Position numbers and translations under genes: made by a program. Of a DNA stretch of 64,000 nt, positions 5,687-62,232 are shown piece after piece. The notes below the pieces were generated by a model, which saw nothing but the letters and a program-made list of their open reading frames with translations, did no database searches and was not told the DNA's origin. Source of the DNA: a virus; IMG/VR virus record IMGVR_UViG_3300024999_000030, positions 186,001 to 250,000 of that record. One strand, 5' to 3'. The first letter of the stretch is position 1; every line of letters starts with the position of its first letter.

Positions 5687-7366
5687 ATGGAACTAGAACT
5701 TAAACAGAAAAAAGAACGGGCACATGAAGCTTTGGCGCGATTATCTGGAATTGCCATCAGAGAAACAGTCCGAGGAATTGCTACTATCTCCATTAGGGAA
5801 AAGGTCCTAGAGGAAATTCGTGGCTATGAAGTTGATATTCTAAACTTAATCATAGCCGTGGATACATCAGTTGAATCGAAAACATCTAATGTTAAATTCA
5901 AAATGGGAGATAGAGTAGGCTGTAACTCTGGACCAAAGGGAGGAACCATTTGTAGTGAGGTCTTCTTTATTCGTGGTGAAGAAGCCTACATGGTTCGATG
6001 GCCAAAGGAATATGGAACACAAGGCTGTTTTGCCTTTCAGCTCTACCATTTGTTTAGTTTTAAGGTTGGAGATTGGGTACGGTTCATTGATCGTCCAGGA
6101 GTGTCTGGTACAATTACCAATATCAATACCAATTCATACTTTAGATACGAATTCATACCAAGTGATTCTACACTTAAATGTCCCAAATGGTATGGAGGAG
6201 ATAAAATTGAATTGGTTCCAGAATTCCAAAGCGGGGATATAATTCGGGTTATAGATAAACCCGAAAGAACGGGAACAGTTATTGGCGAGATTTGCCAAAG
6301 AAGCTTAATTCAAGTAAAGTGGGCAGAGGAAACTTCGGCAATTAGAAGAGAGTACATAGAACACACCACCAAATTTCACAAAGGAGACAGGGTCCGTCAT
6401 AATATGGATCCCCGTTTAGTGGGAGTAATTGAGGAAGTTGTTGGGCATTCCCATACAGCTTTTTATAAGATTCTTTGGGACGATAATCGAAGAGAAGCTT
6501 GCTGGGAAAACCAACTCGAAATTTCAATAAAACCTATCCCGATTTTAGTAAAGCCTAACCTGGGATTCAAAGTTGGAGATAAGGTTGCAGAGGTGGGTAG
6601 TTCCGCTGAAGGAGTAATTACCGATGTTGGCTACGGGTATGGCCCAACATACACGGTTGATTGGGACGTCAACTTAAAGAGTGAACATAAAGGTGCAAAA
6701 CACTATACTCATGAATTGCGTCTCTTATCCAAACTTGAAACCAAACCCACTTCAAACAAATTCAAAGTCGGAGATAAAGTATATCGTAACGATATTCCAT
6801 CGGACAGGGGAAAAATTATTACCGACTGTCTAAGCCCAAACAATTTATATCTTATTGAATGGGAAGATAAACGGGGTAACTGGAAAGAACATTGTTATGA
6901 TACAGAAATTAGTCTTCTACCTCCAAGCGAGTTTAAAGTAGGAGACAGAGTAGGTAGTATCGCAAGTAATGCTGAGGGAACAATTTCCTATGTCGACTAT
7001 AGCTCTAACTACGATTATGCCTATATAATCGATTGGGATAATTTAGAGCCCTTCGAAAAAAGTGCCGGGACACTTTATAGCTCTTTTGAGTTACGCCACC
7101 TGTCTAAACCTGACACCAAATCCAACACAAAAGGAGAAGATGAAATGAGGCACACAACATATCCTCCGTTTAACGGCAATGAAATCGATACAAGTAAACC
7201 CTTCTGGATTATTTTCTGTCCTCATTGTAACAATGTTACTTTGAAGCAGACAGAAGCGGATGCGAAGGCAGAAGCCGAGCGTCTCACTCAACTCACGGGG
7301 GAGGCTCACCTTCTCTTTGAGCAAAAGGGAATGTGTTCTCCTCAGAAACAGGTAACCTGGAGTTAA
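5687..7366 (+). CDS. Seven-repeat KOW/SH3-like protein with CPxCNN C-terminal domain
   Basis: 559 residues from ATG 5687 (AGGAG upstream). A helical N-terminus of about 70 residues is followed by seven repeats of 50-60 residues. Each opens FKxGDxV, continues with G-x-I and closes with a strand of type IDWDN or VKWAEE, as in small SH3/KOW/Tudor-like barrels. The last 70 residues form a separate domain with FCPHCNNVTL, a helix, then HLLFEQKGMCSPQKQVTW; its Cys could bind metal. The same two-part build occurs at 1-556 and 18731. A binding or scaffold role is inferred; no catalytic motif is seen. Confidence 0.8.
   Translation: MELELKQKKERAHEALARLSGIAIRETVRGIATISIREKVLEEIRGYEVDILNLIIAVDTSVESKTSNVKFKMGDRVGCNSGPKGGTICSEVFFIRGEEAYMVRWPKEYGTQGCFAFQLYHLFSFKVGDWVRFIDRPGVSGTITNINTNSYFRYEFIPSDSTLKCPKWYGGDKIELVPEFQSGDIIRVIDKPERTGTVIGEICQRSLIQVKWAEETSAIRREYIEHTTKFHKGDRVRHNMDPRLVGVIEEVVGHSHTAFYKILWDDNRREACWENQLEISIKPIPILVKPNLGFKVGDKVAEVGSSAEGVITDVGYGYGPTYTVDWDVNLKSEHKGAKHYTHELRLLSKLETKPTSNKFKVGDKVYRNDIPSDRGKIITDCLSPNNLYLIEWEDKRGNWKEHCYDTEISLLPPSEFKVGDRVGSIASNAEGTISYVDYSSNYDYAYIIDWDNLEPFEKSAGTLYSSFELRHLSKPDTKSNTKGEDEMRHTTYPPFNGNEIDTSKPFWIIFCPHCNNVTLKQTEADAKAEAERLTQLTGEAHLLFEQKGMCSPQKQVTWS
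7129..7147 (+). promoter_or_regulatory. Internal SD and in-frame ATG
   Basis: AAAAGGAG at 7129-7136 lies eight bases before in-frame ATG 7145, where the repeats end and the CPxCNN domain begins. It would make a C-terminal product of about 74 residues. Confidence 0.55.
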
Positions 7367-7384
7367 ATCTTTTCGGGAGAAAAC

Positions 7385-7576
7385 ATGGGACCTTTGCAAT
7401 GTAACATGTTGGAAGGAAGGGATGTTTCCACTCTTTCGGCTGCTATTAATGAATGGCTGAAAGCTCATCCGTATTGCTCCATTGAACATATTTTTCAATC
7501 TCAAAGTCAAACTTCTTTTCCTACAGACGGAAAGGTAGTGGTTTCCATCTGGTATCGAGATCAAAATAAAAAATGA
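7385..7576 (+). CDS. Hypothetical 63-residue protein
   Basis: The start follows TCGGGAG. The sequence has a helix (INEWLKAHP) then strands, the C-terminal one VVVSIWYRD. This resembles small alpha/beta phage proteins; no family named. Confidence 0.6.
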   Translation: MGPLQCNMLEGRDVSTLSAAINEWLKAHPYCSIEHIFQSQSQTSFPTDGKVVVSIWYRDQNKK

Positions 7577-7665
7577 AAGTTGAACAAGAGGAGATACACT
7601 CTCTCCCCATCGGTGTTGTTTTGCTTTTCATTTTACTTGCTATCCTCTGGTTCCTAAAACACTAA
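7573..7665 (+). CDS. 30-residue single-span membrane peptide
   Basis: ATG overlaps the previous TGA. An acidic N-terminus (MKVEQEE) precedes a 19-residue hydrophobic span (PIGVVLLFILLAILWFL). Translational coupling makes it credible. Confidence 0.55.
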   Translation: MKVEQEEIHSLPIGVVLLFILLAILWFLKH

Positions 7666-7685
7666 ACCCACCACAAGGAGATGAC

Positions 7686-7943
7686 ATGAAGAAAGTTGAT
7701 GGAGTTGATCTTTCGGAGCTTGTTAAAGAAACCGCCACCGCAGTACTCAGCGAGAAACGCAAGGGTATTGCCGGGTTAGTGAAAGAGTTGATGCAAAAGT
7801 CAGAATCTCTCGCAAAGGAAATTGAGAAGGGAGAGATTGAACTCAACAAGAAGAAAGCGAATTTAACAGCTGTGAACGACAAGCTGAAGAAGCTTGGTGA
7901 GGGTGACTGGTCTGTTCTTCAAGACATCGCCCCGCCTCAGTAA
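7686..7943 (+). CDS. Coiled-coil protein
   Basis: 85 residues, Lys/Glu-rich and almost wholly helical, after AAGGAG. Role unknown. Confidence 0.65.
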   Translation: MKKVDGVDLSELVKETATAVLSEKRKGIAGLVKELMQKSESLAKEIEKGEIELNKKKANLTAVNDKLKKLGEGDWSVLQDIAPPQ

Positions 7944-7950
7944 AAACAAA

Positions 7951-8042
7951 AGACTTCTGGTTCCGATATGTTCACGAGTTATATACTCCACAGGAAAAAC
8001 GCCGAGTAGCCTGCGATAGAAGTCTCGACATAAGTTTAACTC
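7951..8042 (+). ncRNA. Possible pseudoknotted leader
   Basis: AGACTTC 7951-7957 pairs with GAAGTCT 8019-8025, and GAGTTA 7976-7981 with TAACTC 8037-8042. The helices interleave. The element sits in a 130-base gap before the SD at 8064. Confidence 0.35.
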
Positions 8043-8075
8043 AAAACTCACGAAGTACCTCACAAGGAGATGAAA

Positions 8076-8168
8076 ATGAGAATTTCTCACGTGCCACCCC
8101 AGTTTGTTCCTGGCCGCTTCAATGATGAGTTTGTATTTGTTTCTCCTGTTGTTAAGAGCGGGAGATAA
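8076..8168 (+). CDS. 30-residue peptide
   Basis: ATG 8076 has CAAGGAG upstream and ends one base before the next start. The product (MRISHVPPQFVPGRF...) has normal codon use but no known relative. Confidence 0.5.
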   Translation: MRISHVPPQFVPGRFNDEFVFVSPVVKSGR

Positions 8169-8169
8169 G

Positions 8170-8463
8170 ATGGAAGCAGTGAAGAAACATCTTGATTTAT
8201 TGGGTCATTTGGTTGAGGACAAAGTTACTGGATTTAAAGGCATTGTAGCTTCCATCAATTTTGAACTCTACGGTTGCATTCAAGCGGTGGTAAATCCAGG
8301 GGTTGACAAAGATGGGAACATCAGAGATTCTCGATGGTTTGATGTGAATAGATTGAGGGTGTTGTCCAGTAGTCCAGTAATGAATGTTCCTAATTTCGGT
8401 CAACTCACGACTGCGAATGGCGATCAAGGGGCGGATGAAAAACCACTCTTTGATAAACCTTAA
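8170..8463 (+). CDS. Small beta-rich protein
   Basis: 97 residues. The start at 8170 (GGGAG upstream) is preferred over the earlier in-frame ATG. The segment GHLVEDKVTGFKGIVASI followed by D-SRWFDVNRLRVL matches a small SH3-like phage protein pattern in which a short barrel ends with an R-L-R-V strand. Function unknown. Confidence 0.65.
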   Translation: MEAVKKHLDLLGHLVEDKVTGFKGIVASINFELYGCIQAVVNPGVDKDGNIRDSRWFDVNRLRVLSSSPVMNVPNFGQLTTANGDQGADEKPLFDKP

Positions 8464-8473
8464 ATAGATTTAA

Positions 8474-8491
8474 GAGCCTCGTTCCGCTCGG
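8474..8491 (+). repeat. Second copy of the GAGCCTCG element
   Basis: GAGCCTCGTTCCGCTCGG matches 4202-4219 at 16 of 18 bases. Both copies stand 32-48 bases ahead of a start codon and contain a GAGC/GCTC hairpin. Confidence 0.5.
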
Positions 8492-8538
8492 CACAAACTG
8501 TCTCATCGCCCGGTTGGAAATAACTTAGGAGGATGCCA

Positions 8539-8736
8539 ATGAAACGAATGCCAAGACCGTCTTGGGATCTTCCTGACAAGGTAAGGTTTCCTAAGCCGGG
8601 TGATGAGATAGTTCGATATATCCGTGGTCCGAAACACACTTACTCAGTTAAGGGAGTGGTGATTGGAGTATGGGTAAACGGAGCACTAGAGGTTAAGTGG
8701 GAAGACAAAAAAATACTTATGAAAGGAAGGGAGTAA
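8539..8736 (+). CDS. Small SH3-like protein
   Basis: 65 residues from ATG 8539, six bases after AGGAGG; the ATG at 8533 is too close. FPKPGDEIVRY, GVVIGVW and LEVKWEDKKIL resemble one KOW/SH3-like repeat of the large repeat protein. Confidence 0.6.
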   Translation: MKRMPRPSWDLPDKVRFPKPGDEIVRYIRGPKHTYSVKGVVIGVWVNGALEVKWEDKKILMKGRE

Positions 8737-9173
8737 TGAAAAATAGTATGTGGCAATCGTTTAAGCAATGGTTGTCAAGACAAACTATTGTTGAGCTTCT
8801 TATTTATTTCTGCATCCTCGCCATTGTCTATTTGCTTTTTTTCGTGCCCATTTATCATGGGCAGGGATGGTTTGGAAAGAAAAGCAATGTAGACTGTACC
8901 GTCCAACGACTTTATGTGGATATGAGCGGTAGAAGTTCTCACTATATGGTGGGAACGGACAAGGGGGTATATGAAGTAGGAAACGGCTTTCTTATTGGAA
9001 TCTGGAACGCCGATGAGATTTATGCAGACATTAAAGAAGGTCGGTCTTATCATTTCACCACGCGGGGAAACAAGGCTCTTGGAATGTTCTACCAATATTA
9101 TCCTTTCATTGTAAAGGTGGAACCACTCACAAAGCCTGAAATTCCTTATGGTACTGTACCAGGCAAAGAGTGA
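8736..9173 (+). CDS. Membrane-anchored protein, DUF1523-like
   Basis: 145 residues; start overlaps the previous stop (TAATG). One N-terminal membrane span at about residues 20-40 is followed by an exported domain with a V-C-T-V-Q strand, GTDKGVYEVGN, and a WNADEIYADI-EGRSYHFTTRG stretch. This resembles the DUF1523 arrangement in phages. Function unknown. Confidence 0.6.
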   Translation: MKNSMWQSFKQWLSRQTIVELLIYFCILAIVYLLFFVPIYHGQGWFGKKSNVDCTVQRLYVDMSGRSSHYMVGTDKGVYEVGNGFLIGIWNADEIYADIKEGRSYHFTTRGNKALGMFYQYYPFIVKVEPLTKPEIPYGTVPGKE

Positions 9174-35546: not shown

Positions 35547-37079
35547 ATGGAACGTAAAGTAAAAACTGGTCCAAAAATTATTGGTCTCGCTTTACTTGTT
35601 ATTGGCCTTATCTTCGGTGGAAAGTGGGTGTTGAACAACACTAATATTATTCCGAAGGGATCTAGTGGTACAAGCAAATCTTTCTTTAAACACGCTAAGG
35701 AACCTCTTAAGGTTTGTGTGGTTACCTGGGGAGGTTATGCTGGTGGTCAGTATTATAATCGTGGTTTCAAACCGAATGACGACTCTCAGTATCTGAAGAA
35801 GTATGATCTTCCTGTAGAGTTTGTTGTTATCGACGATTATAACGCATCCAGAGAGGCGTGGAAGGCCGATGCAGTCCAGGTGCTGTGGACTACTGCTGAC
35901 TCGTTTCCGACCGAAGCTGGGGCACTACAGCGCGCCGGATACAAACCTAAAATCATTTTTCAGTCTGACTGGTCCCGTGGTGGAGATGTCATTGTTAGTA
36001 CCCGAGTTATTAACTCCATTCAGGATCTCAAGGGTAAGCGAGTTAGTGTTGCTTTCGGCACCCCATCCCACACCTTCCTGCTGCGTTCGTTAGAGGCGGT
36101 AGGTATGACGGTTAAAGACCTCAAACTTATTGAGGTTCCGTCTGCTGTTGATTCTGCCACGGCCTTTAAGGCTGGACAGGTTGAGGCGGCGGTGGTGTGG
36201 TCCCCTGACGATGAAGACTGCATTAGTAAGGTTTCAGGAGCTAAGGCTCTCGCTTCCACTAAACAAGCTACCCATATCATCGCCGATGTTTTCTATGCTA
36301 AGGAAGAAATTATTGAGAAGCGTAGAGACGACATCAAGGCTTTGGTAGAAGGTTGGATGATTGGTGCGGCGGAAGTTAACTCTAGCCCCACTGCCCGCTC
36401 TCAGGCTGTTAAGATTCTGGCCGAGGGTTTGAATCAACCTGATGGTTTCATTGATCAGGCAATTAACAATGTTCGCTTAAACACCTACGGAGACAATGTG
36501 AACTTCTTTAATCTTCGTGGAAGTTTTACTGGTGTAACTGGCGAACAGCTTTATCTTGAGACCGGTAGATTGTATCAGGAAAATACCAACCTGGTTCCAG
36601 ATGGTATGCCTTCCTGGAGAGTTATTAGCGATGCCAGTATTCTTCGTGATATCAATCTCACTGGCGTTAATGATGGTGCTGAATCTGACTTTAAGTTCTC
36701 TCAGCCCACCAAGTCTCTTGAAACCGCTCCAGCTCTTAGCACTAAGCGTTTATCTGTGAGCTTCGCCACGGGCTCAGCCTCTCTCGATGCCAACGCTAAG
36801 ACGATTATTGACCTTGGGTTTGTTCCCACGGCTAAGTCGTTTGCTAGTGCCCGCATCAGAATCGAAGGTAACACAGATAGTACGGGTAGTGCCTCGACCA
36901 ACGAGCGTCTTTCCTATCTTCGCGCTAAAGCTGTTGCTGGATATCTTTCCGAGCAGTATGGATTTGACAGCAATCGTTTCGTCATCGTTGGTAATGGTCC
37001 CAATAAACCAATAGCTGACAATGACACCGAAGAGGGCCGTTCTGCTAATCGTCGCACCGATTTTGAGTTGGTGCGGTAA
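35547..37079 (+). CDS. Solute-binding protein fused to OmpA domain
   Basis: 510 residues. A membrane anchor or uncleaved signal at about 12-30 is followed by a NitT/TauT-type (NMT1/SsuA-like) substrate-binding domain at about 52-350, including VSVAFGTPSHTFLLRSLEAV and SAVDSATAFKA-Q-EAAVVWSP. The C-terminal 115 residues are an OmpA/MotB-type domain with NTDSTGSASTNERLSYLRAK and GRSANRRTDFEL, which binds peptidoglycan. The binding protein is thus tied to both membrane and wall. Substrate unknown; relatives bind nitrate, taurine, sulfonates or thiamine precursors. Confidence 0.8.
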   Translation: MERKVKTGPKIIGLALLVIGLIFGGKWVLNNTNIIPKGSSGTSKSFFKHAKEPLKVCVVTWGGYAGGQYYNRGFKPNDDSQYLKKYDLPVEFVVIDDYNASREAWKADAVQVLWTTADSFPTEAGALQRAGYKPKIIFQSDWSRGGDVIVSTRVINSIQDLKGKRVSVAFGTPSHTFLLRSLEAVGMTVKDLKLIEVPSAVDSATAFKAGQVEAAVVWSPDDEDCISKVSGAKALASTKQATHIIADVFYAKEEIIEKRRDDIKALVEGWMIGAAEVNSSPTARSQAVKILAEGLNQPDGFIDQAINNVRLNTYGDNVNFFNLRGSFTGVTGEQLYLETGRLYQENTNLVPDGMPSWRVISDASILRDINLTGVNDGAESDFKFSQPTKSLETAPALSTKRLSVSFATGSASLDANAKTIIDLGFVPTAKSFASARIRIEGNTDSTGSASTNERLSYLRAKAVAGYLSEQYGFDSNRFVIVGNGPNKPIADNDTEEGRSANRRTDFELVR

Positions 37080-37094
37080 ACTAAATTTTATAAT

Positions 37095-37115
37095 GGGGGC
37101 CCATATTGGGCCCCC
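37095..37115 (+). terminator. GC-rich hairpin between operon genes
   Basis: GGGGGCCC 37095-37102 pairs with GGGCCCCC 37108-37115 around ATATT. No U-tract follows, so it may be an attenuator or mRNA-stabilising hairpin. Confidence 0.5.
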
Positions 37116-37129
37116 TCTATGGAGGTCAT

Positions 37130-37759
37130 ATGAAAAAGTTTCTGATTACTATGGCGTTGTCGATTTTCTGTGTTACAAACTGGGCCACTTTTACTGGGCT
37201 CACACTTATTCCTACTAGTGATTACATTGGTAAGGATGTGTGGTCTATTGGTGGGCAGGCCTGCTATACTAAGTTCCACACCGATCAGTTTCTTATTACT
37301 GAGTTTGGTTTGGGAGATAGATGTGAAGTGGGGTTTGACTTCTACGCCAATCCACAACAAGTTGAGCATCGTGAATATTTTAACTTTAAATACATGGTGC
37401 TTAAAAGCGACAGCCATAAGTTTTTTGTCAGCGTTGGGTTTTACAACATGATGGTTACTGGAAATTCCGTTCCGTTTCTTGTGGCCACTAAGGACTTGGG
37501 TTTGATTAGAGTCCACGGTGGGGTTCAATATGAAGGACTAACGGACACTAAAAGTAATTGTATGATTGGCATTGATCGTATATTTACTAATGGTTGACAA
37601 GTGTCTGCCGATTATACACATGGTCAACAGAACTTTTCTTCAATCGGCGTTGGTCGTATTGGTAAGCGTTGGCAAACTTTTGCTGGTGCCATGTATCCTA
37701 ATGCTGGCGGGCGGCCCCTTGTTATGTTGAGGATAATTTTTACTGGCAAGGGGAAGTAA
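37130..37759 (+). pseudogene. Beta-barrel-like exported protein with in-frame TGA
   Basis: From ATG 37130 (GGAGG upstream) the product has a signal peptide (KKFLITMALSIFCVTNWA) and then alternating strands typical of a small outer-membrane beta barrel. TGA 37595-37597 is codon 156, yet the same frame continues QVSADYTHGQQNFSS to a TAA at 37757, directly before the next gene, with strand-like, conserved-looking sequence. Trp (TGG) would fit there. It may be nonsense-mutated, read through, or a sequence error. Confidence 0.6.
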
Positions 37760-37972
37760 ATGTTTGAAATTTTAATCAGGGGTTTTAAAACTAAAGCACA
37801 AGCAGAGGCATTTTATAGCTGGTATGAAGGACAAGGAGAACAAGACGCTTGTATATGGTTTGAGTGTAGAAAAGAAGAAGGCGACATAGATGTTGATTCT
37901 ATGTTGACTGATGTCAATGTTGGGAATAAGTGGGTAGGAGATTGTTTGACCTTTGAAGTAACCCCTAATTAA
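37760..37972 (+). CDS. Hypothetical 70-residue protein
   Basis: Small alpha/beta protein (FEILIRGFKTKAQAEAFYSWYE). Lies between the barrel and permease genes. Confidence 0.6.
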   Translation: MFEILIRGFKTKAQAEAFYSWYEGQGEQDACIWFECRKEEGDIDVDSMLTDVNVGNKWVGDCLTFEVTPN

Positions 37973-37983
37973 ACGGAGATCGC

Positions 37984-38781
37984 ATGGATAGTTTGTTTAC
38001 TTTGCGTGGAACACTGTCCAATAGAAATAAACTCATCGTAGAAATTCTTGGAGCAATGTTACTACTTGTTATTTGGTGGACGGTAGTTAGTACTGGACTT
38101 GTTCGTTCCAGCATTCTTCCTTCCCCAGTAAGCGTTATTACTTCCGTGCCAGAGTTGCATTATCAAGACGCTCTTATTATGAATTGTTTGTATTCCCTAA
38201 AACTTAATATTATGGGATACATCGAAGCAATTCTCATTGCTATTCCCCTTGGGTTTTTTATTGGTCTCATTCCAGTATGTAGGGGAATGACAGAGAGATA
38301 TATTACCGCCTTGAGATACCTTCCACTCACTGCCGTCATTGGCTTATTTATTCTGTGGTTTGGTATCGGCGATGCGATGAAGATTCAATTTTTAACTCTG
38401 GGAATTGTTGTGTATTTATTACCAGTAGTAGTGCAAAGAATCGATGAAGTCCAGCAAGTTTATCTGGACACCATTAAAACTTTAGGAGCTACTAACTGGC
38501 AAACAATTTTTAGGGTTTATATTCCCAGCGTTGTTTCTAGGATATCGGATGATATCCGTGTGCTTGTTGCTATCTCTTGGACTTATATTATCATTGCTGA
38601 AGTAGTGAACAAACAGGACGGTGGCATCGGGGCTCTTATTTTTACAGTAGCGAGACAAAGTAGGGTAGATAAGGTGTTTGCCCTTTTGGCTGTTATTATT
38701 GTAATTGGATTCACTCAAGATAAGTTATTCATGTGGTTAGATAAAATTGCGTTTCCATTTAAATATAAAGGAGGTCGATAA
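37984..38781 (+). CDS. ABC transporter permease, NitT/TauT type
   Basis: 265 residues with about six spans. DTIKTLGATNWQTIFRVYIP near 160 is the EAA loop that docks on the ATPase. The GFFIGLIPVCRG and LPLTAVIGLFILWFGIG segments fit the SsuC/TauC/NrtB class. It overlaps the ATPase gene by one base. Length is normal. Confidence 0.85.
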   Translation: MDSLFTLRGTLSNRNKLIVEILGAMLLLVIWWTVVSTGLVRSSILPSPVSVITSVPELHYQDALIMNCLYSLKLNIMGYIEAILIAIPLGFFIGLIPVCRGMTERYITALRYLPLTAVIGLFILWFGIGDAMKIQFLTLGIVVYLLPVVVQRIDEVQQVYLDTIKTLGATNWQTIFRVYIPSVVSRISDDIRVLVAISWTYIIIAEVVNKQDGGIGALIFTVARQSRVDKVFALLAVIIVIGFTQDKLFMWLDKIAFPFKYKGGR

Positions 38782-39647
38782 TGGCACGTAGCGTTGGAGA
38801 AGAAATCATCGAGGCCGCCATTAATAATACCTCCGATGGTGTTACTTTTGAGAACACCAAATACCCAGACATAATTGAGTTAAAAGATATCTGCCAGACT
38901 TATGATGGCGGAAAAAATTACACTATTAAGAACTGCAATTTACTTATTGAAAACAAACCGGATCAGGGACAGTTTGTGGTACTACTCGGTATGTCTGGAT
39001 GTGGTAAATCCACATTGTTAAAATATATTGCTGGCCTACAGCAGCCCACATCTGGACAAGTTTTAATTGGTGGAAAACTTCGTTCCGATAAAGATATTGT
39101 CAGTATGGTATTCCAACAATATTCTTCTTTCCCATGGCTCTCTGTGCTTAAAAATGTGATGTTACCCCTAGAGCTTAAGGGCGTATCATCTAAAGAGTGC
39201 AGAGATAAGGCTATGGAAATGTTAAAACTTGTTGGGCTTGTGGAACACAAAGACAAATATGCAATGTATGGACCGTTATCCGGCGGTCAGTTACAGCGCG
39301 TTGCTATTGCCCGTAGTCTTGTTTCCAACCCTAACATCATTTTAATGGACGAGCCCTTTGGTGCTCTTGATGGGGTAACTCGTTATCAAATGCAAGTTCT
39401 TTTATCAAAGATTTGGGAGGCTCTTAAGTCAACCATTATTTTTGTTACTCATGACATTAGAGAGGCTGTATTTTTGGGAGATGATATTTATATTATGGCT
39501 CCTCATGGTGGTAAAATTCTTAAGCATTTCTTTGTAAATTTACCACTACATCGAGATTTAGATATCATGCAGGATCCAATCTTTATTGAGACCGTTCGCC
39601 AGATTGATATAGAAATGAGATCTGCTGCAGAAAAATATTTGAAATAG
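38781..39647 (+). CDS. ABC transporter ATP-binding protein, NitT/TauT type
   Basis: 288 residues. Walker A GMSGCGKST near 70, Q-loop FQQYSSFPWL near 113, signature LSGGQLQRVAIARS near 165, Walker B IILMDEPFGALD near 186 and H-loop FVTHDIREAVFL near 217 are all intact. It energises the permease at 37984. A 30-residue N-terminal extension is unusual. Confidence 0.9.
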   Translation: MARSVGEEIIEAAINNTSDGVTFENTKYPDIIELKDICQTYDGGKNYTIKNCNLLIENKPDQGQFVVLLGMSGCGKSTLLKYIAGLQQPTSGQVLIGGKLRSDKDIVSMVFQQYSSFPWLSVLKNVMLPLELKGVSSKECRDKAMEMLKLVGLVEHKDKYAMYGPLSGGQLQRVAIARSLVSNPNIILMDEPFGALDGVTRYQMQVLLSKIWEALKSTIIFVTHDIREAVFLGDDIYIMAPHGGKILKHFFVNLPLHRDLDIMQDPIFIETVRQIDIEMRSAAEKYLK

Positions 39648-39667: not shown

Positions 39668-39847
39668 ATGTATAAGCCTTACATACCAGAGCGTGACAAA
39701 AACATCAAGCTTTATAATGATGGGCATTCCTGTCATTTGAAACCATTACCTCTCGACATGGAGGAGAAAGAGAAGGAACGAAATGTTCTTCACCGACTAT
39801 GGACAAATATTAGAAAGCTCATTTCCCTGCGGAGAGAAAAATGTTAA
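39668..39847 (+). CDS. 59-residue protein overlapping PRPP-synthetase-like gene
   Basis: ATG 39668 opens MYKPYIPERDKN and runs 65 bases into the next gene in another frame. The first 40 residues look coding; SD is weak. Confidence 0.4.
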   Translation: MYKPYIPERDKNIKLYNDGHSCHLKPLPLDMEEKEKERNVLHRLWTNIRKLISLRREKC

Positions 39848-40601
39848 TGATTTTAAAGTCATGGGACATTCACTTTTGGCAGCGAGTAACATCAAATGGA
39901 AGTGGGAATCTGATTCAGAACTAATCACGCTCATGTTGATAAAAAAGCTCTATCCAAATATTTTAACTCTTACAATTTTTTACCTCCCATATGGAAGAGC
40001 TGACAGGAACGAAAAAGGTGGAAGTTCGTGCTCGCTAAGATATGTCGGAGATTTTATTCAATCACTTGGATTCGAGAAAATTACAGTTCTCGATCCCCAT
40101 TCCGATTTATCGATTGCATACCTTGGCGAATCTGCGTGCTCATATTATCCAAAATCTGAACTGCTTACAGGGCTTGGCGTTAACTACACGCCAAAAAATT
40201 CAGTAGTAATGTTTCCTGATTCTGGAGCACAAAAGCGTTATGGCAAAGCCTGGTATGGATATCTGCATGTCTTAGGTTCAAAGACCAGGGATTTTCGAGA
40301 CGGTAAGCTCACTGGTTATTCTATCGCGGATGGGGTTCCAGCAGAAGGCAAGCATGTTATTATAGTTGACGACATTTGTTCGTATGGTGGTACATTTATA
40401 CTTGCCTCAAACGCTATCAGAAAATTCAATCCGTTGTCAGTGGCACTTGTTGTAACTCACTGTGAAGACAGCATTTTCAATGGTGATGTTTTAAAGGCTG
40501 GTAGCCCAATCGATCTTGTCGTCACAACAAATTCCCTAATTACTAAAGAGGGATCTTCTAAACTTAAAATCGTAGATGTTATAAAAACAGGAGGGAACTA
40601 A
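39783..40601 (+). CDS. PRPP-synthetase-like enzyme (candidate Adps of NARP1)
   Basis: 272 residues. LPYGRADRNEKG near 65 is the flexible-loop region, DPHSDLS near 99 the metal/ATP site, and HVIIVDDICSYGGTF near 191 the PRPP-type loop. Classical Prs makes PRPP from ribose-5-phosphate and ATP. In the phage NARP1 pathway a Prs-like enzyme (Adps) instead pyrophosphorylates ADP-ribose, and its NAMPT-like partner (Namat) rebuilds NAD+. The pairing with the next gene supports that reading; sequence alone cannot prove the substrate. Confidence 0.8.
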   Translation: MFFTDYGQILESSFPCGEKNVNDFKVMGHSLLAASNIKWKWESDSELITLMLIKKLYPNILTLTIFYLPYGRADRNEKGGSSCSLRYVGDFIQSLGFEKITVLDPHSDLSIAYLGESACSYYPKSELLTGLGVNYTPKNSVVMFPDSGAQKRYGKAWYGYLHVLGSKTRDFRDGKLTGYSIADGVPAEGKHVIIVDDICSYGGTFILASNAIRKFNPLSVALVVTHCEDSIFNGDVLKAGSPIDLVVTTNSLITKEGSSKLKIVDVIKTGGN

Positions 40602-42071
40602 TGCCCAGAATCCCAATGCTTATGGCCGACTTCTATAAAATAGGCCATAGAGAACAGTATCCAGATGGAACACAAACCGTGTATTCAACTTGGACGCCGA
40701 GAGCAAGTAGGGTCGAACCAATAAAACATGTAGTTGCCTTTGGGTTCCAAGCCTTTATTAAGAAGTATCTCATTCAGTTTTTCAATGAGAACTTTTTTGA
40801 AAGACCGAAGGCCGATGTGGTTTCTGAATACAAGAGGGTAATTTCTTCAACTCTTGGGATAGGGAACCCGCATACCCAACATATCGAAAGGCTTCATGAT
40901 CTCGGATATCTTCCAATTAAAATTATGGCTGTGCCAGAAGGCACCAGAGTCCCACTTCGAGTTCCGATGCTCACAATAGAAAACACAGGCTCGGAGTTTT
41001 TCTGGCTCACAAATTTTCTTGAAACACTTATGTCTTGTGAAATTTGGCTGGCAAGCACGAGCGCAACAACCGCAGCCGAGTACAGAAAAATCCTGGATCA
41101 CTATGCAAAGTTGACTGGTGATCCAGAGTTTGTTAAATTCCAAGGGCATGATTTCAGTTTTAGGGGCATGGCGTGCTTAGAGGCTGCTGAAATGAGTGGA
41201 GCGGGACATCTTCTCAGTTTTGTTGGAACAGATTCAATTCCAGCCATCACATATCTAGAGGAATATTATCACGGGAATGTAGAGAAAGAATTAATTGGAT
41301 GTTCAGTGAACGCTACTGAGCATTCTGTTATGTGTGCTGGGGGGGGCTAACAACGAATTTGAAACATATAAGCGACTGATGTTCGATGTTTATCCAACAG
41401 GGATACTTTCAATTGTCTCTGACACTTGGGACTTCTGGAATGTCTTATCTAATATTATTTTTCCACTAAAGGATGGAATAATCAAGCGTGATGGAAAGAT
41501 TGTCATTAGACCAGATAGTGGTGACCCAACTAAAATAATTTGTGGGGATCATGATGCTAACAACCTCCTCGCATATAAGGGGGCCATCGAAGTTCTTTGG
41601 GACATATTTGGAGGTACCGTTAACGATAAAGGATATAAATGTTTGGACCCACACATTGGTCTGATTTATGGTGATGCCATCACCCTTGATCGATGTAGGG
41701 AAATTTGCAGCGGGCTCGAAGCAAAGGGCTTCGCATCCACAAATGTCGTCTTTGGTATTGGGTCATATACATATCAATGTGTAACACGTGATACATTTGG
41801 CTTCGCTTTAAAATCAACCCATGTTACAATTAATGGAGAAGATGTAAACATCTTTAAGAATCCACTAACTGACTCCGGGTCCATAAAGAAGTCGGCAATT
41901 GGAAGGGTGGCTGTCCTACAGAAAGACGATGGGGAACTTTATTTGTCCGATGGACATGGCCGGGAAGAAGTTCCTGGAAATCTCTTATCTCCTATTTTTG
42001 TGAATGGTGTATTAGTTAAAGAACAAACACTTGCAGAAATTCGCGAAAGACTTACTTCTGTAAAAACTTAA
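40601..42071 (+). pseudogene. Nicotinamide-phosphoribosyltransferase-like enzyme (candidate Namat), frame-shifted
   Basis: The start overlaps the previous stop by one base. DFYKIGHREQYPDG at the start, VPEGTRVPLRVPML, FSFRGMACLEAAEMSG, then FETYKRLMFDVYP, IVSDTWDFWNV, VIRPDSGDP, YGDAITLDR and FGIGSYTYQC cover the whole NAMPT fold. The two halves are in different frames, joined at G8 41339-41346; seven G would give CAGGANNEF and a normal product of about 489 residues. Either phase variation, a programmed shift or an indel. Confidence 0.75.
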
Positions 42072-43620: not shown

Positions 43621-44145
43621 ATGTCATATATGGATAGTATTTTTGAAGCAAGTAGTTATAAAAATATTGTTTCTAAAACAGCATTAGTAATTGATAAGAT
43701 TTCCGAAAAACATAATAAACTTTCTATTGTTCATACGGGATTAAGTGGTGGTTTAATTGGCCATCCCGTTGCAATGGCTCTAAAACTTAATAGCATGCAC
43801 ATTAGAAAGAATGATCAGAGTCATGGAGATCCAATAGAGGCTGGATATAGTTCACCCGATAAGCAAATTAAGTTTCCATATGCTATCGTTGATGATTTTA
43901 TGGATAGTGGTGATACCATTAAGAAAATAATTAAGAAAATGAAAAACTTTTTTCCCAAATGTTTTCCGGTTGGAATTGTATTATATGATGAAATCTCTTT
44001 TGATGTGTGGGACCATAAAGTGATTAACTCCGTAGTAAAGGGAGATTTTTCTGTCTATACCTTTTGGCATAAAGCTAAAGGATATAGAGTACACACCTTC
44101 GATGGCAAAGAATGGCATGAATCTAAAACTCTTAAAAAGTTTTGA
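43621..44145 (+). CDS. Type I phosphoribosyltransferase-like protein
   Basis: 174 residues. HTGLSGGLIGHPVAMAL forms the first strand-loop, KNDQSHGD recalls the flexible loop, and YAIVDDFMDSGDTIKKI near 100 is the 13-residue PRPP-binding motif with two acidic residues and DSGDT. These enzymes move phosphoribosyl between PRPP and a base. The base is not evident, but it suits a phage that handles PRPP and NAD+. Confidence 0.75.
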   Translation: MSYMDSIFEASSYKNIVSKTALVIDKISEKHNKLSIVHTGLSGGLIGHPVAMALKLNSMHIRKNDQSHGDPIEAGYSSPDKQIKFPYAIVDDFMDSGDTIKKIIKKMKNFFPKCFPVGIVLYDEISFDVWDHKVINSVVKGDFSVYTFWHKAKGYRVHTFDGKEWHESKTLKKF

Positions 44146-50713: not shown

Positions 50714-51265
50714 ATGAAAACATTCATCTTTGATATGGATGGCGTTCTGGTTGACCTTGAGGGAGCACTAGTCTCCCTAGCTGACCGCCTTGGTTTATCG
50801 TTGCCCCCTGGGCCAGCTAAGGGACTGCACATCTGGCGCGACCTCAAGTATCGGCGCGTTATGCAGTACATTTCTATGAGCAGCGATTTTTGGATTAATT
50901 TAGAGCCACTACCATCTGGACTACAAGCATTTAAAACCCTTAAGTCCGAAGGAAACACTACCCTTATATGTACTTGCCCATTTGACGCCAGTTGTATTTC
51001 TCAAAAAATTACATGGTGTGAACATTACTTAGATATCGGCTTAGATGATATAACAGTAATGAGGCGGAAGGAATTAATGGCCGCCCCACGAAGAATTTTG
51101 ATTGACGATAAAATAGATAATTGTAATGCCTTCGATGCTGCGGGCGGAACATCTATTTTAGTTAATCAGCCGTGGAGTCCGTATGAATCTTTTTCAAATA
51201 AACCAGCTAGTGGCGTTATTGTGGCTGATCCAAATCATATTCTGGAGGTGTTAAGGCAACTATGA
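50714..51265 (+). CDS. 5'(3')-deoxyribonucleotidase-like HAD protein
   Basis: 183 residues. FIFDMDGVLVDLEGALV holds the nucleophile and acid Asp; TLICTCPF is motif II; RILIDDKIDNCNAFDAAGG is motif IV. This layout fits NT5C-type deoxyribonucleotidases, which remove phosphate from dNMPs. A role in nucleotide pool control is inferred. Confidence 0.75.
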   Translation: MKTFIFDMDGVLVDLEGALVSLADRLGLSLPPGPAKGLHIWRDLKYRRVMQYISMSSDFWINLEPLPSGLQAFKTLKSEGNTTLICTCPFDASCISQKITWCEHYLDIGLDDITVMRRKELMAAPRRILIDDKIDNCNAFDAAGGTSILVNQPWSPYESFSNKPASGVIVADPNHILEVLRQL

Positions 51266-51927
51266 AAACCTCAAAGCGATTTCTAAAAGAAGCGCTTGAT
51301 GGGGCTGGATTACCAAGTGTCATACCCAACACAAATGACTATGTGCAGAGGGGTGATGCTTTAGTTATTATTGATATGCAGCGTATGTATTTTGATTTGG
51401 GAGAAGCTCGATGGAGAAACGATAAAAATACATCTGCATTTTCACTCAATAATATCGGATGGTTATCCAGAGATATGATTAAAAGACAAATTAAAGTTAT
51501 TCAGTCATTTAGGAAAGCTCAAAAGCCAATCATTGTTGTAGAGTTTACAACGGATAGTGGACCATGGGATGCAACTTTACCGCCAATTCTCAGGGCATTA
51601 GATGGCTATAATAAATTTGTCACAATAAAAAAGAGACAGATAGATGGTTCCACTCATGTAAAACGGGCCATTAATAAATTTTTGCCAAAGCCAACTAAGG
51701 TATTAGTTATGGGTATTTATTTATCCTGTTGTGTTAAAGAAACTGTTGCTGGTTTAATTAAAAAGAATATAGACGCTTCCGCTATAATTTCCTGCTCATA
51801 TCACACTGATTTACTAGCTGATTTAAATCACAATCCAACTTCTCATAACTATAGAAAAGCATTCTTAAGAGGTGATGTCTTGAATAGGTCCTTCACTTAT
51901 GATATAGAAATGAGGTTAGTTCCATGA
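51262..51927 (+). CDS. Isochorismatase-fold cysteine hydrolase
   Basis: 221 residues, ATGA overlap. ALVIIDMQRMYFD holds the catalytic Asp, FVTIKKRQIDGS the Lys, and VMGIYLSCCVKETV the nucleophilic Cys. The fold includes nicotinamidases and isochorismatases. A nicotinamidase role would connect with the NAMPT-like gene, but substrate residues cannot be judged. Confidence 0.7.
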   Translation: MKTSKRFLKEALDGAGLPSVIPNTNDYVQRGDALVIIDMQRMYFDLGEARWRNDKNTSAFSLNNIGWLSRDMIKRQIKVIQSFRKAQKPIIVVEFTTDSGPWDATLPPILRALDGYNKFVTIKKRQIDGSTHVKRAINKFLPKPTKVLVMGIYLSCCVKETVAGLIKKNIDASAIISCSYHTDLLADLNHNPTSHNYRKAFLRGDVLNRSFTYDIEMRLVP

Positions 51928-52893: not shown

Positions 52894-53490
52894 ATGGCTG
52901 GACTTATTCCTATCGTGGTTGAACAAACTGGGCGGGGCGAACGAGCATATGATATTTATTCGCGCCTACTGAAAGATCGCATTGTATTTCTCGATGGAGA
53001 AATTCACGATGAAGACGCGAATCTTATTATTGCTCAGCTTTTATTTCTAGAGGCAGAAGATCCATCGAAAGACATTTGGCTCTATATCAATAGCCCTGGT
53101 GGCTCGGTGACGGCTGGATTAGCTATCGTTGATACGATGCAATACATTCGTCCCGATATCAATACTATTTGTATTGGGCAAGCGGCTTCCATGGGAGCCG
53201 TCATCCTCGCCTGCGGAACTAAGGGTAAGCGCTACGCCCTTCCTCGTTCCAGAGTATTGATTCATCAGCCTAGTGGTGGAGCAGGCGGACAGTCTATCGA
53301 TATTAAAATTGCAGCAAACGAAATTGAAAGAATGGCTCAGCAACTTTATACCATTCTTAGTGAGCAGACTGGTCAGAAGCTCGCTAAAGTTGAAAAGGAT
53401 TGCGATCGTGACTTCATCATGGTCCCCGAAGTAGCTAAGAAGTATGGGGTTATTGATGGAGTGCTTAATAAGCGACCGCTCACGAAGTAA
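52894..53490 (+). CDS. clpP: ClpP-type serine protease
   Basis: 198 residues, the usual length without a long propeptide. IQ-like [11 protein letters not shown] carries the Ser, [14 protein letters not shown] the His, and DCDRDFIM the Asp of the triad; [15 protein letters not shown] lines the chamber. The family forms a 14-mer that degrades proteins fed by an AAA partner. AAA genes lie downstream, but no ClpX/A signature is seen. It may process phage proteins or redirect host ClpX. Confidence 0.9.
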
Positions 53491-57013: not shown

Positions 57014-58318
57014 ATGGCGAATACTAATAAGGCTAGAACTAGATATATTATCGTCCTTCCCAGAAACTCTGGCTCTACGCAATATGTCGCAATGAACGCT
57101 ATCGTAGGCACTATTTTCTCTAGTGGTAGTAACGATGGAGTTTATGATTCTCTTCAACTTATGTTCCCTGGTGTTTATGATATTTTCCCAGATAAGCGTA
57201 TGTTGGTAGCTGAGGCCGTCATTGAATCATTGTCTTACGCTGCTAATGTTTCCATTAAAAATATTGATTGCCAAGCAACACCAGATGAACGCCCCAGAGT
57301 ATTGCTTCTAACTGTTGCAAGTAGTGAAAAGAGTAAAGATATTTCTCACTTAATTGTTTTGGAGAAGTATCTGCCTGAGAATGATATTCTTGACTTACCC
57401 TCGGCTGATGGCTCTGGTCACCCAGCATCAAGTGCGACGAACATGGCTGGTGGTAAGGTCGCTGGGCCTGGACAGCAAGAACAAAAATCCGCTGGGTATA
57501 TTTATATGCCAAAGCATAATGTTCCCTTGATTCTCGGAGAACATGAAGCTAATGTACTACAGGATGTCCTTGATGCTATTGTTAACCGTAAGAAGATTTT
57601 TGAAGATTATGGTCTCGATGAGGTTATGGACACCAATAGTATGTGTTTTCTATTTCATGGTGCTCCTGGGACAGGCAAAACACAAGCCGCCAAATATGTT
57701 GCTAAGAAACTCAACACGCCTCTTCTTATCGTTGACCACAGTCAAATTGTAGATAAATATGTGGGAGAGACTGAAAAGCGTATTGCTGAAGTGTTTAAAC
57801 GCGCCGAAACCGAAAAGTGCATCATCTTCTTTGATGAAGCTGACTCTTTGCTTGGAGCGAGGAATGGAGCGGAGCACTCTTGGGAAATCAGCAAAGTTAA
57901 TGCGTTGCTTCAGTCTATGGAAAATTTTAATGGCGTAGCAATTTTTGCAACGAACTATGCTTCTCAGCTTGATCAGGCTGTTAATAGACGACTTCTTATG
58001 AAGATTACTTTTGATCTTCCTGATCAGGAGAGCCGTGCTAAAATTTGGGAGGCTTTGCTGCCCACCAAGGCCCCTAAAGATGCGCTCGATTTTAAGGAAT
58101 TAAGCAAACATCTTATGACTGGCGGCGAAATTAAGAATGCAGTTATCTCTGCAACAGTTGAAGTTGCTAAGACTGATGCAAAGATTAACATGGACTCTCT
58201 TAATCGAATGGCGGCTAAAGTTATTGAGGAGCGCCTCTTTGATCCATATAAGGAATCGGATAAGGAGAAATCCAAGAAGAATATGGGGTTCGGACCCCCG
58301 ATGATGGAATTGAAATAA
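57014..58318 (+). CDS. Classical AAA ATPase
   Basis: 434 residues after AGGAGG. A 200-residue unrecognised N-terminal region, then FLFHGAPGTGKTQAAKYVAK (Walker A), KCIIFFDEADSLLGAR (Walker B), AIFATNYASQLDQAVNRRL (sensor 1 and arginine finger) and a C-terminal helical lid. It resembles substrate-remodelling AAA proteins of the FtsH/Vps4 type without a protease domain. Confidence 0.85.
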   Translation: MANTNKARTRYIIVLPRNSGSTQYVAMNAIVGTIFSSGSNDGVYDSLQLMFPGVYDIFPDKRMLVAEAVIESLSYAANVSIKNIDCQATPDERPRVLLLTVASSEKSKDISHLIVLEKYLPENDILDLPSADGSGHPASSATNMAGGKVAGPGQQEQKSAGYIYMPKHNVPLILGEHEANVLQDVLDAIVNRKKIFEDYGLDEVMDTNSMCFLFHGAPGTGKTQAAKYVAKKLNTPLLIVDHSQIVDKYVGETEKRIAEVFKRAETEKCIIFFDEADSLLGARNGAEHSWEISKVNALLQSMENFNGVAIFATNYASQLDQAVNRRLLMKITFDLPDQESRAKIWEALLPTKAPKDALDFKELSKHLMTGGEIKNAVISATVEVAKTDAKINMDSLNRMAAKVIEERLFDPYKESDKEKSKKNMGFGPPMMELK

Positions 58319-59818: not shown

Positions 59819-60919
59819 ATGAAGATGAATATTGAAGACGCCAAGGCCGCTATTAAATCTCTCGACATCACTATCCCTGTATTCTTGTGGGGGCCTCCTG
59901 GTGTTGGTAAGTCGTCCCTCGTTCACCAGCTCGCACAAGAGGTGGGTATGGGCTTTAAGGATGTTCGTCTCACCACTATTGATCCAACTGATCTTCGTGG
60001 TTTGCCTTACATTCATGAAGGGCGAGCTTATTGGGCTAACCCCGTAATTCTTCCTCAGCGCGCTGACAAGGAGCACGGTATTAAAGGAGATGAGGAGTGC
60101 GGTTATTTGCTTCTGGATGAATTGAACTCTGCTCATACCACGATTCAGGCTGGCGCTTATCAGCTTGTTCTTGATCGTAAAGTTGGTGAGTATGTTCTTC
60201 CTGACGGCTGGCGTATTATTGCTGCTGGTAACCGAGAGGAAGATCGTGGTGTTACTTTCCAAATGCCCCGTCCTCTTCAAAATCGTTTCGTGCACATTGA
60301 GATTGAAGTTGATAAGAAGGTGTGGACTAACTGGGCTATGAAGGCCGGAGTGTCTCCTACTGTTATTGCTTTCATTGAGTCTCAGCCTGGTATGCTCAAC
60401 CCTTCCGATAAGGACAAAACGAAGAAGTCTTTCCCCACCCCGCGAACTTGGGAGTACACTAGCAAAATCATCAACACCGTAAAGAATGAAGACCTTCTTA
60501 TTCCGTTGCTTCAGGGCACCATTGGTGATGCTGCTTCTCATCAGTTTGTGAGCTTCTTGAAGTTGCGCCATAAGCTTCCTAACCTCGATAAGATTTTTGC
60601 CGGTAAACAGGAGCCTCTGCCCAGTGAAACTTCCTTGCAGTATGCTTTCTATGCTGCCCTGTGTGGTAAGGTTGATGACCTGGTGAAAGAACGCGGTATT
60701 GCTAAGCTCACGAAGGATGATAAGTTCATCGGTGGGCTTGTTTATTGTATCACTAAGCTGGAACGTGAGTTCGTTGAACTTATCGTTCGCCATCTGTCCG
60801 AGAGACAGGGCCAGTTGTTTGTGGCTCTCATCAAGGCGGCTCCCGACCTGGCCAAAGAACTCACCAAGATGTACGGTGAAATCATGACCGTGTCCATGAA
60901 ATTCGGTGGTGGAAAATAA
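59819..60919 (+). CDS. MoxR-type AAA ATPase
   Basis: 366 residues after AAAGGAG. WGPPGVGKSSLVHQLA (Walker A), GYLLLDELNSAHTTIQAGAY (Walker B), WRIIAAGNREEDRG (sensor 1) and MPRPLQNRFVHIEI (arginine finger region) define the class. MoxR ATPases remodel or load cofactors into proteins, usually with a VWA partner; the next gene supplies one. Codon use is GC-richer than average, suggesting strong expression. Confidence 0.9.
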   Translation: MKMNIEDAKAAIKSLDITIPVFLWGPPGVGKSSLVHQLAQEVGMGFKDVRLTTIDPTDLRGLPYIHEGRAYWANPVILPQRADKEHGIKGDEECGYLLLDELNSAHTTIQAGAYQLVLDRKVGEYVLPDGWRIIAAGNREEDRGVTFQMPRPLQNRFVHIEIEVDKKVWTNWAMKAGVSPTVIAFIESQPGMLNPSDKDKTKKSFPTPRTWEYTSKIINTVKNEDLLIPLLQGTIGDAASHQFVSFLKLRHKLPNLDKIFAGKQEPLPSETSLQYAFYAALCGKVDDLVKERGIAKLTKDDKFIGGLVYCITKLEREFVELIVRHLSERQGQLFVALIKAAPDLAKELTKMYGEIMTVSMKFGGGK

Positions 60920-60951
60920 TCTAATTAGGTGTTATATTTATCATGTGGGGT

Positions 60952-60969
60952 GGGCGAGAGTGGCTCGCC
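60952..60969 (+). terminator. Intergenic hairpin
   Basis: GGCGAG 60953-60958 pairs with CTCGCC 60964-60969 around AGTGG. No U-tract; attenuator or mRNA structure between the MoxR and VWA genes. Confidence 0.4.
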
Positions 60970-61011
60970 TATCCCAGTTATGTTTCAACTAAGTAGATAA
61001 GGAGGATTTAA

Positions 61012-62232
61012 ATGGCAGATTTTCTAGCTGGCAAGAGCGATTCAGAAATTGCGAAGATTAAGATTGCAGCTGCAAAACGTGAGGCGCATTCTAAATGTCC
61101 GTTCTTCGCCTTTCTTTTGTTTGCTCCCAACTATAAGGAAGCTCCAGATGAAATGTGGACTTCTGCTGGTGGGTCTCCAACGATGGCGACTGACGGAGAA
61201 AACATTTTCTATTCCGTTCAGTTCATTAAGGACATTCCGATTGATCAGTTAATCGGAGTTTTAGTCCACGAGGTTATGCATTGCGCTTTACTTCACATTG
61301 TTCGTAAGGGTGTGCGTGACCCACTCAAATGGAACATTGCTATTGACTATGCAACCAACGCTATTCTTCATAAGAACAATCTCAAGCTTCCCGCTGGCAC
61401 TTTGTTTGATGCAAAGTATAACGATAGAAGCGCTGAAGAGATTTATGTTGATGTCTCTAAGAACCCACCTGACATGAAAAAGGTTAAGATGTTTGATATG
61501 CATATGTTTGGCGAGGGGGATGGTGGCAACAATAAGAAAAATAATGGCGGAGGTCAGAACTCCAGTGAAAAATTTAAAGAGCAAATGTGGAAATCACATC
61601 TTGCTAACGCTGCTGTTCAGGCCCGCCAGCAGGGTAAGTTGCCCGCTGGGATGGAGCGTATTATTGAGGATGTTCTGGAAGATAAGGTTCCGTGGCAGCA
61701 AATGCTTTCCAGATATCTGAGCCCGTTTGCACTGAAGACTGATTTCACCTGGACTAAGCCCAATAAGAAGATGCTTCAGTTTGGTATTATTCTCCCTGGG
61801 TTCCAGTCTGAAAGCCTTGAAGTTGCTGTTGGTGTAGATACTTCCGGTTCCATTGGACCCAACGAGATTCAAACTTTCCTTAGTGAAGTTCAAGGCATCA
61901 TGAGTGTGTCTAAGAACTATACGATTCACATCGTTGGTTGTGATGCTCAAGTTGATGAGAAGGATTATCATATCATCACTGAGTGTAACTCCACTCTTCC
62001 CACAAAGCTCGGTGGTGGTGGTGGCACGGACTTTCGGCCCGTGTTTGATTTCTATGAGAAGAAGAATGTGCGCCCGGCCTGTTTAGTTTACTTTACTGAC
62101 GGCTATGGGACCTTCCCGAAGGAGCCTCCCGACTACGATGTTATCTGGTGCGTGGTTCCTGGTGGGGTTGGCCCCGACCAGGTTCCTTGGGGTGTTTACG
62201 TCCGGACTGAATTCGACAAGGACGAAGAGTAA
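61012..62232 (+). CDS. Zincin/VWA protein partner of MoxR (DUF2201-like)
   Basis: 406 residues after AAGGAGG. VLVHEVMHCALLH near 87 is a His-Glu-x-x-His zinc site, followed by WNIAIDYATNAIL. The C-terminal half is a VWA-like domain with VGVDTSGSIG (metal-dependent adhesion site), a Gly-rich GGGGGTDFRP and FTDGYG. This two-part build matches DUF2201 proteins, which are paired with MoxR ATPases in bacteria. Target unknown. Confidence 0.85.
   Translation: MADFLAGKSDSEIAKIKIAAAKREAHSKCPFFAFLLFAPNYKEAPDEMWTSAGGSPTMATDGENIFYSVQFIKDIPIDQLIGVLVHEVMHCALLHIVRKGVRDPLKWNIAIDYATNAILHKNNLKLPAGTLFDAKYNDRSAEEIYVDVSKNPPDMKKVKMFDMHMFGEGDGGNNKKNNGGGQNSSEKFKEQMWKSHLANAAVQARQQGKLPAGMERIIEDVLEDKVPWQQMLSRYLSPFALKTDFTWTKPNKKMLQFGIILPGFQSESLEVAVGVDTSGSIGPNEIQTFLSEVQGIMSVSKNYTIHIVGCDAQVDEKDYHIITECNSTLPTKLGGGGGTDFRPVFDFYEKKNVRPACLVYFTDGYGTFPKEPPDYDVIWCVVPGGVGPDQVPWGVYVRTEFDKDEE

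Follow-up and report, generated by a model that had tools for sequence, protein, structure and literature searches.

The locus described here is very probably the adps-namat operon of NARP1 in a large phage; its Namat gene loses the reading frame within a stretch of eight consecutive Gs. This assignment is made from sequence comparison and concerns the window, i.e. the whole 64-kb stretch of DNA that was analysed, which covers positions 186001-250000 of a 332,730-bp virus record. The sequence-only reading had proposed a NARP1-type pair. This proposal is supported by the Adps lineage of the first protein in our tree and by the second protein, in which most of the published selectivity-clamp signature of Namats, missing from true Nampts, is present (PMC12774641). 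NARP1 would hereby gain a distant phage lineage.

Organisation of the locus

The features of the adps-namat pair given below lie on the plus strand. The first gene (39783..40601) is intact and encodes a 272-aa protein of Prs fold, which by homology, tree position and AlphaFold2 model is a putative ADP-ribose pyrophosphate synthetase (Adps) homologue; it matches PHROG 619, 'ribose-phosphate pyrophosphokinase' (E 2.7e-55). Its stop codon and the Namat start at 40601 have one base in common (TAATG), an AGGAGG Shine-Dalgarno sequence (40589..40594) lies 6 nt 5' of this start, and adps directly adjoins namat, as in the NARP1 layout. The one-base overlap of a Prs-like and a NAMPT-like gene, claimed earlier, is borne out by this junction. 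Namat comes in two parts, an N-terminal one of 249 aa (40601..41350; 68.7% identity to the Namat of Bacillus phage SPbetaL1), whose stop codon TAA stands right after the G run, and a C-terminal one of 245 aa (41334..42071; 59% identity to the same Namat), whose own frame is open throughout. Both parts match PHROG 448 (NAMPT), with E values of 3e-103 and 5e-90. The pair had been placed at 39783-42071, and these coordinates are correct; the single NAMPT ORF assumed to reach 42071, however, turned out to be two ORFs in different frames.

Homology suggests how the two enzymes would act. Adps would transfer pyrophosphate from ATP onto C1 of ADP-ribose to give ADPR-PP, and Namat would exchange the pyrophosphate of ADPR-PP for nicotinamide to give NAD+. 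The products of defence NADases (TIR, SIR2, SEFIR) would in this way be turned back into NAD+ by two reactions, with no need for an NMN adenylyltransferase, and the adps-namat pair may counter NAD+-depleting defences.

The Prs-like protein groups with Adps

The window protein is 35% identical to SPbetaL1 Adps (E 1e-37), which is of equal length and among its best phage matches, and it scores 161 bits against SPbetaL1 Adps versus 47 against E. coli Prs. The input for the tree consisted of Prs-like proteins adjoining Namat-like genes on viral contigs, phages and plasmids, together with 10 Prs. All 51 Adps-like Namat partners split from the 10 Prs (branch support 100/99), and the window protein, which sits on a long branch (1.5), is placed within the clade of SPbetaL1 Adps (support 99/96). 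Grouping of the window protein with Prs was rejected in a reduced 25-row tree (AU p = 0.0034). A tree of Adps versus Prs had been named as the check on the sequence-only reading, and its outcome speaks for Adps.

The two families differ in three loops. Prs carry DLHA, PDxGG and DDMIDTGGT, whereas most Adps carry PHS(D/P), PDxGA and DD(I/L)(C/S)(D/S)xGxTF, a signature derived in the present analysis from 51 sequences. With PHSD, PDxGA and DDICSYGGTF, the loops of the window protein are of the Adps type. The first belongs to the motif DPHSDL (40092..40109; DLHA in Prs), whose H106 and S107 are invariant in our alignment A1, and the last is the substrate loop (40368..40397), which aligns with DDMIDTGGTL of E. 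coli Prs. In Prs, the DDMIDTGGT-type loop binds the 5'-phosphate of ribose-5-phosphate. Since this 5'-phosphate is part of the pyrophosphate bridge in ADP-ribose, a change of the substrate loop would be expected in Adps. The catalytic R/D/H/K/DD residues are retained. The AlphaFold2 model of the window protein (pLDDT 83.6) shows the Prs fold and matches PRPP synthetases; according to PMC12774641, no structure of an Adps has been published. Judged by these comparisons, the Prs-like protein is an Adps homologue. As a simple sequence signature, these loops tell Adps from Prs, which is useful because most phage Adps genes still carry a PRPP synthetase annotation.

Most Namat clamp residues are kept in the NAMPT-like protein

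Over its length, the NAMPT-like protein is ~64% identical to the crystallised SPbetaL1 Namat. Overall identity alone is no proof of ADPR-PP use, since H. ducreyi NadV, which has GAQTYQRNTRD without the clamp aromatics and no adjoining adps, is still ~53% identical. The residues with which SPbetaL1 Namat contacts NAD+ (PMC12774641) were read from an alignment of about 60 sequences, and 18 of the 20 are kept in the window Namat: D13, Y15, R40, F189, S190, R192, D215, A242, R306, D308, G360, D361, A362, G390, S391, T398, R399 and D400. R40, the adenine-stacking residue of the selectivity-clamp loop (alignment; PMC12774641), is encoded at 40709..40711, and the catalytic histidine (EHSVM) at 41321..41323. 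The two changes are F392 to Tyr, which is conservative, and Y396 to Cys. The motif of the selectivity-clamp helix, GSYTYQCVTRD (41760..41792), was compared with the Namat consensus GSx(T/S)x(Q/N)x(N/V)TRD, in which positions 3 and 7 are aromatic (PMC12774641); it agrees throughout except at position 7, which is Cys. Cys in place of Y396 also occurs in no fewer than seven phage Namats besides this one (Pakpunavirus YS35 and Adele; L028, L047, L055, L058 and L059), each of which has the surrounding motif complete. Activity of the double mutant R40A/F392G was down 16.6-fold, that of single clamp mutants 1.3-1.7-fold (PMC12774641); given these mild single-mutant losses, use of ADPR-PP may survive the change of a single clamp residue. 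In the Nampts of L021, phT4A, D525 and a Rhodococcus plasmid, GG(G/K) replaces the GS-aromatic of the clamp motif, and these four true Nampts form an outgroup to the Namats (support 100/100). On its sequence, the NAMPT-like protein is a Namat. As a side observation, L058 encodes Adps and Namat as a fusion in a single 803-aa ORF (6327-8738).

The tree and the AU test, the Adps loops and the clamp motif all speak against classical nicotinamide salvage, in which Prs makes PRPP, Nampt makes NMN and the host NadD completes the pathway, and it is highly improbable that the pair serves this purpose. The viral contig L021, a carrier of real Prs and Nampt, differs at both the Adps loops and the clamp. 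What speaks for such salvage is the fold common to both families, the Cys at Y396 of the window Namat and the finding that published Namat retains some NMN-forming activity with PRPP (PMC12774641).

NMN adenylyltransferase and neighbouring genes

The window had been said to lack an NMN adenylyltransferase. This holds across the whole 332,730-bp record, which may be incomplete (PF01467, E <= 1); all 14 control genomes gave matches in this search. The absence had been counted in favour of NARP1 over classical salvage. It fits NARP1 but does not discriminate. Bacterial hosts have their own NadD, and because they supply it the absence is weak as evidence. NARP2 (Nampt plus NMN adenylyltransferase) was considered and set aside, as this possibly incomplete record holds no phage-encoded NMN adenylyltransferase. 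Nudix and macro-domain genes are absent from the record as well. A hydrolase of isochorismatase fold (PF00857), possibly with a D-K-C triad, is encoded at 51262-51927. It could be a nicotinamidase and would then compete with Namat for nicotinamide; no PncA model matches it.

Upstream of adps lies a complete ABC importer (35547-39647), composed of an NMT1/TauA-like binding protein with a C-terminal OmpA domain fusion, a TauC-like permease and an ATPase. Its best phage relatives are found in huge phages, namely the 735-kb LR756501, Prevotella Lak phages and Bacillus phage G. A tie of this importer to NAD metabolism found no support; the relative in Prevotella phage Lak-B8 lies ~87 kb from Namat. 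A type I phosphoribosyltransferase-like ORF with a weak PF00156 match (43621-44145) is situated 1.5 kb 3' of Namat. Further downstream, the best NCBIfam match of an AAA ATPase (57014-58318) is the anti-phage ATPase IteA, far below cut-off; ClpP (52894-53490) and a pair of AAA and VWA-metallopeptidase genes (59819-62232) are encoded near it.

The Namat frame is broken at a run of eight Gs

Eight consecutive Gs (41339..41346) mark the place of the frame loss (+1); they form the sole G run of at least seven in the 64-kb window. Namat residues 1-249 are encoded in one frame (40601-41350) and the remainder in a second one (41334-42071); put together, they correspond to the N- and C-terminal halves of a single Namat (69% and 59% identity to SPbetaL1 Namat). 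The break falls at about Namat residue 252, within a loop (~250-255) that follows the catalytic histidine. In the alignment, relatives have mixed glycine codons and remain in frame across this stretch. No Rfam intron was detected at gathering score in the window and ten relatives. The Namat reading frame is not intact, which bears on a working pathway and not on ancestry; since the gene is frameshifted, activity in the window phage is not assured.

We consider it rather unlikely that the frameshift is a homopolymer sequencing or assembly error. Homopolymers are prone to errors, but the neighbouring long genes are intact with runs up to T8 and A7. A single further contig with this site was found, IMGVR_UViG_3300025015_000017. 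It is a 100% match over about 112 kb and, being identical over this length, is not independent but probably derives from the same sample or reads. It was consequently rejected as independent confirmation of the G8 run, and its probable origin in the same reads speaks for the error reading. The frameshift probably reflects an actual insertion or deletion in the phage genotype that was assembled. Full-length Namat would then be made at a low level by slippage on the G run, be replaced by two chains or be absent.

Both Namat halves are otherwise clean, which fits a recent or a tolerated break. Namat may be dead through a recent inactivating indel, perhaps the scar of homing-endonuclease cleavage or of intron loss, an explanation that we hold tentatively and at somewhat less than an even chance: the break lies within a loop that is hit by homing elements in Pectobacterium phage CB7, L004 and L039, but neither half has decayed elsewhere. 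More doubtful is a slippery or phase-variable G8, by which a fraction of transcripts or phages would give full-length Namat. No other G run of at least seven occurs in the window, GGG is the rarest Gly codon, both halves are clean, a 12-bp hairpin is found just upstream of G8, and other interrupted genes are known to be rescued at homopolymers (PMC4256274, PMC5009743). However, the G8 run is found in no relative, and the hairpin is not convincing as a stimulatory RNA (p = 0.03 versus synonymous shuffles), an equally strong one being present in the intact relative L006.

One loop is a recurrent split point in phage Namats

In phage CB7 the NAMPT-like enzyme is encoded by CB7_244/246 with an HNH gene in between, which is not spliced in RT-PCR, and a two-peptide enzyme comparable to Aeh1 NrdA was proposed in the same study (PMC7344957). 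The CB7 ORFs end and resume at Namat residues 251 and 255. The viral contig L039 has its Namat divided at 249/255, with an HNH-like ORF on the opposite strand. At the same loop the L004 Namat is interrupted, a GIY-YIG-like ORF coming after it, and in-frame inserts occur in L051 and CR9. These splits, interruption and inserts mark the loop as a recurrent target that is tolerant of length change. The interrupted Namats of L004 (1900-2736) and L039 (7148-8001) break after EHS-C-M. At this place, AGTTGCATG is common to L004, L039 and the uninterrupted L007; most other Namats have EHSVM. This sharing is possibly due to co-conversion by homing.

The two-ORF splits of CB7 and L039 and the inserts accepted by L051 and CR9 are also the main points for a two-chain Namat, in which the C-terminal half would be made by reinitiation at GTG 41334 and assemble with the N-terminal half. 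This possible start overlaps the N-terminal part by 17 nt, so that coupled translation is possible, but its Shine-Dalgarno sequence is poor (only GAG, 13 nt upstream), and we regard the two-chain form as unlikely. We know of no assembly test of any split Namat. With one Namat loop as a repeated split point, the two-chain question becomes testable. It is a speculative proposal, and one to which we give little weight, that Namat is split or slippage-controlled and that the phage uses G8 at this recurrent split point to keep NAD+ reconstitution low or to make its dose switchable.

Comparison with known systems

NadV/Nampt (H. ducreyi pNAD1; T4-like phage Nampt) have the same fold and catalytic core as Namat without the clamp aromatics. 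CB7_244/246 is split at the same loop as the window Namat, in CB7 by an HNH endonuclease gene and in the window by frame loss with no insert. Adps-Namat of Pakpunavirus Adele/YS35 shows the same Y..C clamp variant (GSYTYQCNTRD), but its Namat is intact and longer, and a small gene lies between adps and namat. NARP1 of Mycobacterium phage DyoEdafos and NrsAB of Vibrio phage ICP1 consist of the same two enzymes and are more distant; in vitro, the DyoEdafos enzymes convert ADPR to NAD+ (PMC13232231, PMC11559045). DyoEdafos has a RyR-domain gene between adps and namat, which the window does not have. Among the closest known systems, too, is NARP1 of Bacillus phage SPbetaL1 (OQ921341; PDB 9w5w/9w5x), which was shown to work. 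SPbetaL1 differs in its intact Namat, in Y396, which is Cys in the window, and in size (134 kb versus 333 kb for the window record). Gene order and one-base overlap are the same, Adps likewise has 272 aa and belongs to the same Adps clade, and the Namats are about 64% identical, with the clamp present.
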